From positions 6,634,001 to 6,698,000 of the forward strand of contig NZ_CP109190.1 of assembly GCF_041438805.1 (NCBI RefSeq): DNA of 64,000 bases, written 5' to 3'. Source of the stretch: Streptomyces sp. NBC_01707. GTDB taxonomy: Bacteria; Actinomycetota; Actinomycetes; Streptomycetales; Streptomycetaceae. Under the pieces are notes generated by a model. The model saw nothing but the letters and a program-made list of their open reading frames with translations. It did no database searches and had not been told where the DNA came from. Position numbers and translations under genes: made by a program. Positions 27,649-35,422 of the stretch are shown here, one piece after another (within the stretch, counting starts at the first letter, position 1; the number at the start of each line of letters is the position of its first letter).

Positions 27649-27721
27649 GGGGCTATAGCTCAGTTGGTAGAGCGCCTGCATGGCATGCAGGAGGTCAGGA
27701 GTTCAATTCTCCTTAGCTCCA
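27649..27721 (+). tRNA. tRNA-Ala (anticodon GGC), copy 1
   Basis: 73 bases folding into a full cloverleaf: acceptor GGGGCTA/TAGCTCC, D arm GCTC...GAGC, anticodon stem CCTGC/GCAGG with loop ATGGCAT (anticodon GGC), T arm AGGAG/CTCCT with TTCAATT loop. The CCA end is not encoded. Identical to the second copy at 28999. Confidence 0.97.
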
Positions 27722-27726
27722 CAATC

Positions 27727-28998: not shown

Positions 28999-29071
28999 GG
29001 GGCTATAGCTCAGTTGGTAGAGCGCCTGCATGGCATGCAGGAGGTCAGGAGTTCAATTCTCCTTAGCTCCA
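28999..29071 (+). tRNA. tRNA-Ala (anticodon GGC), copy 2
   Basis: Identical over all 73 bases to the copy at 27649, with the same GGC anticodon and no encoded CCA. Flanking sequences differ, and it has its own promoter-like element and terminator. Confidence 0.97.
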
Positions 29072-29081
29072 CAGTGAAGTA

Positions 29082-32084: not shown

Positions 32085-32398
32085 TGGGGCAACTCCGAAT
32101 TGTTCGGCAAAGCGGTCCCGTTGCGGCATGCTAAGTCGCTCCATACCGGCCAGTACGGGGTTTGAGCGGTTGCCCCAGTAGAGGGCGGTACGCGGAGTAA
32201 CCCCCGCTTCCCGGACGTTCCGCCGCCGCCTCGCAGGGCCCGGCAGGGGACTTCCGGACGATCCGCTGCCGCTTCCTGGGGCTCCTCCCGGGCCTTGCCC
32301 GGACTTTCCTCGGGCTTTCGGGAGGCCCCGTCGTCCGTGGTTGTCCACGGAGCGGCAGTGTCCGGCTGCGCTCCGGGCCTGTGCGGTACCCTGACGCC
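32085..32398. promoter_or_regulatory. Divergent intergenic region between the reductase operon and leuS leader
   Basis: 314 bases with no supported gene, GC-rich in the middle. The right end holds the leuS leader promoter; a near DnaA-box TTGTCCACG is at 32341. The left end must hold the promoter of the reductase operon. Confidence 0.4.
32387..32392 (+). promoter_or_regulatory. -10 box of the leuS leader transcript
   Basis: TACCCT, then six bases, then the leader-peptide ATG at 32399, which implies a leaderless leader ORF. A weak -35 candidate GGCTGC lies 17 bases upstream. Confidence 0.5.
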
Positions 32399-32437
32399 AT
32401 GCGTGCCGTACGCCTTCTGCTTAGCGAGCCGCGCTGA
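32399..32437 (+). CDS. leuS leader peptide (Leu-rich, 12 residues)
   Basis: Reads MRAVRLLLSEPR, with three consecutive leucine codons CTT CTG CTT; two are codons rarely used in this GC-rich genome. It precedes leuS by 117 bases and is followed by an RNA hairpin region and a U-tract terminator. This is the classic layout of ribosome-mediated attenuation: starvation for Leu-tRNA stalls the ribosome and lets transcription enter leuS. Family knowledge: such Leu attenuators have been predicted in actinobacteria. Confidence 0.75.
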   Translation: MRAVRLLLSEPR

Positions 32438-32510
32438 TCAGTCCCGACCGGTGTGAATGCCTGGTTGGAATCGGCGCGGCGTCCCCTCCTGTGCGAGGGG
32501 CTTTTTCGTT
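32428..32510 (+). promoter_or_regulatory. Attenuator of leuS: hairpin plus U-tract terminator
   Basis: A first stem pairs GCCGCGC (32428-32434) with GCGCGGC (32474-32480), with extra GAT/ATC and CCGACC/GGTTGG pairing inside. The terminator follows: CCCCTC (32483-32488), six-base loop, GAGGGG (32495-32500), then CTTTTTCGTTT. The run of T is conspicuous in a genome whose other terminators lack one. Confidence 0.7.
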
Positions 32511-32554
32511 TCCGTAAGCGCGGGCAGATGACGATCGATGGAGCTTTGAGGATC

Positions 32555-35422
32555 ATGAGCGAGACGAATTCCGCAGCCGAGGCGGCTGCGCCGCACCGCT
32601 ATACGGCGGCAATGGCTGCCGACATCGAGGCACGCTGGCAGGACTTCTGGGACGCCCACGGCACGTACGAGGCGCCGAACCCGACCGGTGATCTGGCGGA
32701 CGATCCGGAACTGGCCGCCAAGCCGAAGAAGTTCATCATGGACATGTTCCCGTACCCCTCCGGTGCGGGTCTGCACGTCGGGCACCCGCTGGGCTACATC
32801 GCCACCGATGTCTTCGCCCGTCACCAGCGCATGACCGGGCACAACGTGCTGCACACCCTGGGCTTCGACGCCTTCGGCCTGCCGGCGGAGCAGTACGCCG
32901 TACAGACGGGTACGCACCCGCGCGCCTCCACCGAGGCCAACATGGAGAACATGAAGTCCCAGCTGCGACGGCTGGGCCTGGGCCACGACAAGCGCCGCTC
33001 GTTCGCGACGATCGAGGCGGACTACTACAAGTGGACCCAGTGGATCTTCCTGCAGATCTTCAACTCCTGGTACGACACCGAGGCGGACCGGGCGCGGCCG
33101 ATCGCCGACCTGGTCGCGCAGTTCGAGAACGGTGAGCGCCCGACCCCGGACGGCCGTGACTGGAGCGCTCTGAGCGCCGTCGAGCACGCCGAGGTCCTGG
33201 GCCAGTACCGCCTGGCGTACGCCTCCGACGCGCCCGTCAACTGGTCGCCGGGGCTGGGTACCGTGCTGGCCAACGAAGAGGTGACGGCCGACGGCCGTTC
33301 CGAGCGCGGCAACTTCCCCGTCTTCAAGGCCAAGCTGCGCCAGTGGAACATGCGCATCACCGCCTACGCCGACCGGCTGCTGAACGATCTGGACGGGCTG
33401 GACTGGCCCGAGGCCATCAAGCTGCAGCAGCGCAACTGGATCGGGCGTTCCGAAGGCGCGCGCGTCGACTTCCCGGTCGACGGCGCGGGGGACATCACCG
33501 TCTTCACCACCCGCCAGGACACCCTGTTCGGCGCCACCTACATGGTGCTGGCGCCCGAGCACGACCTGGTGGAGCGGATCATTCCGGCCGCCTGGCCCGA
33601 GGGCACCCATCCGGTGTGGACCGGCGGACACGCGTCCCCGGCCGAGGCCGTCACCGCCTACCGCAAGCAGGCCGCCGCCAAGTCCGACGTGGAGCGGCAG
33701 GCCGAGGCCAAGGACAAGACCGGCGTCTTCACCGGCGCGTACGCGACCAACCCGGTCAGCGGCGAAAAGGTGCCCGTCTTCATCGCCGACTACGTCCTGA
33801 TGGGCTACGGCACCGGCGCGATCATGGCTGTCCCGGCGCACGACGGGCGCGACTTCGCCTTCGCGCGCGCCTTCGAGCTGCCGATGCGCTGCGTCGTCGA
33901 GCCGTCGGACGACCGTGGCACGGATCCCTCCACCTGGGACGACGCATTCGCCTCGTACGAAGCGAAGCTGGTCAACTCCGCGAGCGACGAGATCTCGCTG
34001 GACGGCATGGGTGTCGTCGAGGCCAAGGCGAAGATCACCGCATGGCTGCAGGCGAAGGGCCTGGGCGAGGGAACCGTCAACTTCCGTCTGCGTGACTGGC
34101 TGTTCAGCCGTCAGCGCTACTGGGGCGAGCCCTTCCCGATCGTGTACGACGAGGACGGCATCGCCCACTCGCTGCCCGAGTCGATGCTGCCGCTGGAGCT
34201 GCCGGAGGTCGACGACTACTCGCCGCGCACCTTCGATCCGGACGACGCCGACACCCAGCCCGAGACCCCGCTGTCGCGGAACGCCGACTGGGTCAACGTC
34301 ACGCTGGACCTGGGTGACGGCCCCAAGAAGTACCGCCGCGAGACCAACACCATGCCCAACTGGGCAGGTTCCTGCTGGTACGAGCTGCGCTACCTGGACC
34401 CGAACAACGACCAGCAGCTGGTCGACCCGGCGATCGAGCAGTACTGGATGGGTCCGCGAGAGGGCCTGCCGACCGGTGGCGTCGACCTGTACGTGGGCGG
34501 CGCCGAGCACGCGGTACTGCACCTGCTGTACGCACGGTTCTGGTCCAAGGTCCTGCACGACCTGGGGTACATCTCCTCGGCCGAGCCGTTCCACAAGCTG
34601 TACAACCAGGGCATGATCCAGGCGTTCGTGTACCGGGACAGCCGCGGCATCGCGGTTCCGGCGGCCGAGGTCGAGGAGCGCGACGGCGCGTTCTACCACC
34701 AGGACGAGAAGGTCAGCCGCGTCCTGGGCAAGATGGGCAAGTCCCTGAAGAACGCGGTGACGCCCGACGAGATCTGCACCGAGTACGGGGCGGACACGCT
34801 GCGTCTGTACGAGATGGCGATGGGCCCCCTGGACGTGTCGCGGCCGTGGGACACCCGTGCCGTCGTGGGTCAGTACCGGCTGCTGCAGCGGCTGTGGCGC
34901 AACATCGTCGACGAGGAGACCGGCGAGGTCACCGTCGTGGAAACCGAGCCCGGCGAGGACACGCTGCGCGCGCTGCACAAGGCCATCGACGGCGTCGGCC
35001 AGGACATGGCCGGTATGCGCTTCAACACCGCCATCGCCAAGGTCACCGAGCTGAACAACCACCTGACCAAGGTGGGCGGCCCGCTGTCGCGGTCCGTCGC
35101 CGAGCGACTGGTGCTGCTGGTCGCGCCGCTGGCGCCGCACATCGCCGAGGAGCTGTGGCGCCGGCTGGGCCACACCGATTCGGTCGTGCACCAGGACTTC
35201 CCGGTCGCCGACCCGGCGTACGTCGTGGACGAGACCGTGACCTGCGTGGTGCAGGTCAAGGGCAAGGTCAAGGCACGGCTGGAGATCTCCCCGTCGATCA
35301 CGGACGAGGAGCTGGAGGCGCTGGCCCTGGCCGACCCGGCAGTGGTCGCGGCGCTGGACGGAGCCGGGATCCGCAAGGTGATCGTGCGGGCGCCGAAGCT
35401 GGTCAATATCGTCCCTGCGTGA
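32555..35422 (+). CDS. leuS: Leucyl-tRNA synthetase
   Basis: 955 residues, normal for a bacterial class I LeuRS. The HIGH motif is HVGH at 74-77 ([16 protein letters not shown]), the CP1 editing region includes [14 protein letters not shown], and the KMSKS loop reads KMGKS at about 726-730. An anticodon-binding domain and C-terminal domain follow ([13 protein letters not shown]). ATG at 32555 follows GAGG; an earlier in-frame ATG at 32528 is possible. Expression is probably controlled by the leader attenuator upstream. Confidence 0.97.

Follow-up and report, generated by a model that had tools for sequence, protein, structure and literature searches.

A conserved leucine-codon leader with an adjoining stem and terminator upstream of leuS: a probable attenuator shared across actinomycetes

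Introduction

In Streptomyces sp. NBC_01707 the leucyl-tRNA synthetase gene leuS is preceded by a short reading frame with adjacent Leu codons, a stem and a U-tailed terminator, which raises the question whether this gene is controlled by ribosome-mediated attenuation and, if so, by which switching step. The locus was analysed within a stretch of 64,000 nucleotides of contig NZ_CP109190.1, referred to as the window, whose numbering is used throughout.

Attenuation of Leu-related genes in actinobacteria, which the earlier note on this DNA had named as known, is indeed on record, as classical attenuators were predicted upstream of leuS in S. avermitilis and S. coelicolor (Seliverstov et al. 2005, PMC1262725). 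The reannotation of S. lividans TK24 furthermore lists leuL2, encoding MRAVRLLLSEPR, upstream of leuS as leaderless and followed by a hairpin and a U stretch (PMC8079986). The window's leader peptide is identical to this LeuL2 letter for letter. Because both the identical peptide and leuS attenuators are reported from Streptomyces, the switch has to be regarded as already known; gene, position and kind of leader are the same, and nothing in the window's element differs in kind from these systems as the available parts of the two texts describe them. Those parts do not describe the spread through the class, the CTY rule, the constancy of the gap or the missing terminator-sequestering structure, and measured against them the switch is more widespread and more rigidly built than stated. 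The word 'leuS' is absent from the main texts of the S. clavuligerus Term-seq paper PMC8269248 and of PMC4833913. The window's instance adds one more species to a known attenuator, and what matters is the rule set: CTT, rarely CTC, exactly five nucleotides before a stem that is itself set against the terminator. Attenuators of aminoacyl-tRNA operons were reportedly also treated by Lopatovskaya et al. in 2010, possibly already over a wider taxonomic range, so that we claim no priority for the spread of the leader.

Results

The region upstream of leuS is organized as follows.

32387-32392, + strand: -10-type promoter box TACCCT, 6 nt upstream of the leader start codon, a leaderless spacing
32399-32437, + strand: leader ORF MRAVRLLLSEPR with stop codon, read directly; same peptide in S. 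lividans (PMC8079986)
32414-32422, + strand: putative regulatory Leu codons CTT CTG CTT; 32420-32422 is the conserved CTT, 5 nt upstream of stem A
32428-32480, + strand: stem-loop A, arms 32428-32438 and 32470-32480, from folding, alignments and covariation
32483-32506, + strand: intrinsic terminator T, hairpin 32483-32500 plus U-run to 32506, starting 2 nt past stem A
32555-35422, + strand: leuS, leucyl-tRNA synthetase, 955 aa (TIGR00396, 894.9 bits)

The spacer between the box and the leader ATG (32399) reads GACGCC, the leader peptide comprises 12 residues with three Leu codons, and the 5' arm of stem A contains the last codons of the leader ORF together with its stop. Terminator T is built from CCCCTC-CTGTGC-GAGGGG (32483-32500), followed by C and TTTTT (32502-32506). 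The box six bases ahead of the ORF, the three adjacent Leu codons and the stem at 32428-32480 with a T-run terminator just before leuS had all been described in the earlier note, and direct reading confirmed them with the same coordinates. The short leader ORF, which by its sequence contains codons for the amino acid of the regulated gene, and a predicted intrinsic terminator before the structural gene, judged from sequence and pairing, together make the element a candidate attenuator in the broad sense. No T-box or other Rfam covariance model matched the locus, either at its gathering score or at E values up to 1. The terminator hairpin CCCCTCCTGYGYGAGGGG (32483-32500) is almost invariant in several families, loop included, though a hairpin could drift in sequence; its pattern has a single occurrence in the own genome. 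Two tRNA-Ala (GGC) genes lie at 27649-27722 and 28999-29072 of the window, on the same strand and about 1.3 kb apart.

Leader DNA matches were found in 389 of 392 genomes of the genus, the own genome included. The closest relatives of the window's leuS come from Streptomyces species. Among the best 80 of 585 leuS loci from genome contigs, 67 show, upstream of leuS, both a -10-like box and a small ORF containing adjacent Leu codons, the box being itself a selection criterion for this set, and the other 13 have no such leader by the criteria applied. The 67 leaders from these best 80 loci include Kitasatospora, Streptantibioticus, Jiangella, Micromonospora, Plantactinospora and Catellatospora as well as Paractinoplanes, Prauserella, Kibdelosporangium, Amycolatopsis and Occultella. 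In five of the leader-less loci (L056, L059, L062, L067 and L080) a leaderless GTG start of leuS itself, just past a -10-like box, seems to be present as judged by eye.

For a wider search, a covariance model containing no promoter positions was built from the window's leader and 38 of the 67 leaders. It matched 157 of 394 genomes and 63 of 137 genera of the class. Forty matches from outside the genus, representing 24 families, were fetched, of which 37 lie before leuS (tblastn), one at a contig end (L161) and two before the citramalate synthase gene cimA (L178, L179); the class-wide count therefore includes some matches that do not belong to leuS. By identity to the window's LeuRS over the best aligned stretch, the 37 distant synthetases form two classes (about 35-41% and 63-72%), and five distant leuS fragments tested all had leuS_bact as their best NCBIfam model, below the whole-protein cut-off as expected for fragments. 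One genome (G584) encodes two leuS copies of different class (L155, L156), with about 41% and 71% identity to the window's LeuRS over the aligned region, and a separate leader of the leuS type precedes each of them. After removal of L147 (contig end), L167 (same leader as L066) and the two cimA loci, 36 distant leaders remained for comparison.

A TAnnnT box 6-7 nt upstream of the start codon is present in 35 of these 36 distant leaders, against a background of 12 in 4248 (0.3%) at shifted positions. In the single miss (L154) the start had been chosen in the wrong frame, and the actual GTG has TATCCT six nucleotides upstream. A -10 box at the spacing expected for a leaderless transcript is hence found in the window and in 35 of 36 distant leaders, which supports the earlier reading of the leader as probably leaderless, in line with the term used for the identical S. 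lividans peptide in PMC8079986.

The codon exactly five nucleotides before the GCCG of stem A proved even more constrained. It is CTT, in frame, in 67 of 67 near leaders (from the best 80 of 585 loci), and in the 36 distant leaders it is CTT in 32 and CTC in four (L148, L168, L172, L173), missing in none; CTG never occupies this position (0 of 103 leaders). The position is defined by its distance of five nucleotides from the stem and not as the last Leu codon, which shifts L149 from CTC to CTT. Leu codons in the window's genes, represented by 32 ORFs picked by third-position GC with leuS not excluded, are CTG at 61%, CTC at 33% and CTT at 1.5%, and in the 67 leuS genes (same best 80 of 585 loci) CTG accounts for 97% and CTT for 3 of 4884. 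Both CTT and CTC are read by tRNA-Leu(GAG).

The five-nucleotide gap is kept even where the stop codon shifts: the stop is either a TGA inside the stem arm, a TAG just before the stem (L143, L162, L174, L175, L181, L182) or a later stop (L164, L170, L171, L177), and each of these positions would let a terminating ribosome cover the 5' arm of A. Stem and terminator are likewise held together, with a linker of 0-2 nt in 102 of 105 leaders; this set stems from 107 analysed leaders minus two without a terminator by the rule used, includes the two cimA loci and was searched for linkers of 0-5 nt. The earlier note had staked its proposal on the conservation of the Leu codons and the terminator in related genomes, and both are conserved.

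The earlier note had also suggested folding 32399-32560 as a check. At -64 kcal/mol (z -0.65) the minimum free energy is not significant, as 49 of 200 shuffles were at least as stable; RNAalifold, given no structure, nevertheless recovered stems A and T. Since the folding energy is not unusual for the leader's composition, the case rests on comparison. In an alignment of 62 diverse sequences, 10 of 16 pairs changed on both sides (five of the ten pairs of A and five of the six of T), 97.6% of cells were paired, none of 500 shuffles scored as high and slid controls reached 0-3 pairs, with the reservation that this alignment was fitted to the structure and leans towards it. A MAFFT alignment of 39 sequences showed only 3 of 16 pairs changed on both sides. 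Judged by comparison, the leader element is real, known in the genus and very probably functional.

Discussion

We read the leuS leader as a ribosome-mediated transcription attenuator in which stem A antiterminates by abutting T, and give this reading a probability of roughly 0.55. It builds on the observed sequence, its conservation and covariation, the codon and gap limits and the promoter spacing, from which we infer the tRNA that is read, the stalling, the direction of control and the antitermination. A leaderless mRNA would start at or adjoining the leader ATG, and a ribosome would translate the 12 leader codons while RNA polymerase makes stem A and terminator T. With ample charged tRNA-Leu(GAG) the ribosome would reach the stop codon and mask the 5' arm of A, and T would terminate transcription. 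With charged tRNA-Leu(GAG) in short supply it would stall with the last CUU in the A site, five nucleotides before stem A; the persisting stem, adjoining T at a distance of 0-2 nt, would then keep T from folding fully inside the RNA exit channel, and leuS would be transcribed. The activation of leuS upon Leu-tRNA shortage that had been proposed would follow from this sequence of events. Because a ribosome at the CUU would have A at its mRNA entrance, a codon-to-stem spacing known from frameshift stimulators, and a ribosome at the stop would lie over the 5' arm, the stem would stay intact in starved cells and be masked in well-supplied ones, as expected of an antiterminator.

Some observations speak against antitermination by abutment. 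A and T have no nucleotides in common, and a ribosome mask extending 12-13 nt from the stalled codon takes away four to five pairs from the outer end of A, whose loss in the stalled state would weaken the abutment. The attenuator model as a whole also has to accommodate the folding energy, no better than that of shuffles, and the 13 of the best 80 of 585 leuS loci without a leader. Equilibrium folding, in which T forms in all three simulated states in nearly all leaders, was discarded as an exclusivity test because it is uninformative: T is retained likewise in E. coli trpL and leuL. Three other contacts were considered and set aside. The Leu-codon run can be paired with T's 3' arm (noticed by eye and in the minimum free energy structure of L043), but stalling would then promote termination, and CTC would be a better partner than CTT; pairing of the 3' arm of A with the loop of T is weak, and its bases do not covary in the needed direction; an extension of A into T offers one extra pair in 6 of 102 leaders, partly set by how A was chosen, and was not used.

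A known system close to antitermination by abutment is the 'fast' attenuator of C. glutamicum ilvBNC, in which, according to PMC11857589, the transcription start adjoins the leader start codon, CUU is among the control codons and the antiterminator adjoins the terminator. In ilvBNC a GCC trinucleotide is common to both hairpins, which compete for these three nucleotides (PMC11857589), whereas in the leuS leader the hairpins are mostly 0-2 nt apart; by analogy, blocking of T by direct abutment would be a further step of the same design, and this is the interpretation that we find best. A model of the same logic, with a ribosome at the stop masking the antiterminator and a stall at BCAA codons letting it form, is given in PMC13236596 for M. 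tuberculosis ilvB1, a system that differs in its mutually exclusive hairpins and in gene and codons.

A more conventional possibility, which we hold to be unlikely though a serious competitor, is a classical three-hairpin attenuator, with A as anti-antiterminator and a missed antiterminator that forms when a stalled ribosome opens A and sequesters the 5' arm of T. With the end of the leader in one arm and T following, the layout is reminiscent of E. coli trp (1:2 and 3:4). Most families show an almost unchanged T loop (CTGYGY), as though it had a pairing partner elsewhere; in some species the 3' arm of A can pair weakly with this loop, and PMC1262725 terms the leuS attenuator classical. Like the leuS leader, E. 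coli trpL and leuL combine a leader peptide containing regulatory codons with a terminator; they differ in possessing a T-sequestering antiterminator. When the stalled state was folded without the still untranscribed 3' arm of T, a thermodynamic proxy, pairing of the T 5' arm exceeded 0.5 in none of 102 leuS leaders (mean 0.21), while the positive controls reached 0.71 for trpL and 0.60 for leuL, with the E. coli transcripts taken to begin 26 nt upstream of the leader and the 102 leaders being the 105 minus L165, L178 and L179. The same threshold was passed in 15 of 102 leaders in the unmasked state and in 19 of 102 in the stop-codon state, so some upstream pairing with the T 5' arm exists, but not in the state that needs an antiterminator. 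The leuS leader, which looks like an attenuator, was therefore not filed as trp-type by this proxy, and because a trp-type antiterminator was looked for and not found, the switching step may differ from the textbook one. The E. coli trpL and leuL leaders, moreover, are Shine-Dalgarno-led.

Control could also be mainly translational or act through RNA stability, with leader and terminator both real, as has been discussed for the LEU element of leuA; we regard this as rather improbable. The Leu-codon runs do appear complementary to purine-rich stretches by eye, and altering leader codons of ilvB and leuA in S. coelicolor did not have the effects expected of classical attenuation (PMC1262725). 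The leuA element shares with the leuS leader a Leu-codon leader peptide in actinobacteria and differs from it by a pseudoknot and a Leu run pairing with the Shine-Dalgarno box (PMC1262725, in part). It also lacks a typical terminator according to PMC8079986, whereas a U-tailed terminator is conserved in the leuS leaders. That a chance short ORF merely precedes an ordinary 5' UTR with a terminator would agree with the unexceptional folding energy, yet it is already contradicted by the class-wide conservation of codon, spacing, promoter and pairs and has a negligible probability; on comparative grounds it is conservation, not energy, that shows the leader not to be a product of chance.

Should abutment by itself suffice to block termination, attenuators could do without overlapping hairpins and would be missed by searches that require an overlap; the leader before cimA may be such a case. 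The leuS leader could also report the charging of a single tRNA isoacceptor across actinomycetes. All this might amount to a distinct actinomycete type, defined by a leaderless leader, a minor-tRNA stall codon, a constant gap of 5 nt and a stem that antiterminates by abutting T without base overlap; two diverged leuS classes would use it, and so would cimA, with Ile codons (ATC ATT ATC). We give this tentative suggestion somewhat less than even credence.

The cimA leaders (L178, L179 and L183-L208; in the own genome L213/L218) are attenuator-like, carry Ile codons and share the layout of the leuS leader. The gene was assigned at one tested locus by its best model, TIGR00977, with the fragment scoring below the cut-off. 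The literature searched, including the available part of PMC8079986, held nothing relevant on a citramalate synthase leader, and we make no claim of novelty beyond that search. Within one family, cimA leader DNA has matches in 98 of 120 genomes, though some of these matches cover part of the query only. In 25 of 26 loci (L183-L208) the leader encodes III as ATC ATT ATC/T five nucleotides before a GCGYGY stem, the five-nucleotide window having been part of the search pattern; L199, which the pattern missed, reads MPSQVLIIVRRAG. The terminator again abuts the stem (GACCTCTCG...CGAGGGGTC plus a T-run). The counterpart in the own genome is located as follows.

G000:C1:3552135-3552315, minus strand: own-genome cimA leader, reading VSLFVMIIGNRRAGPQ, with a larger gap between Ile codons and stem

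This stem gap of the Streptomyces cimA leader is larger than in L183-L208, and the own-genome leader DNA matches 61 of 61 genomes of the genus, its own included.
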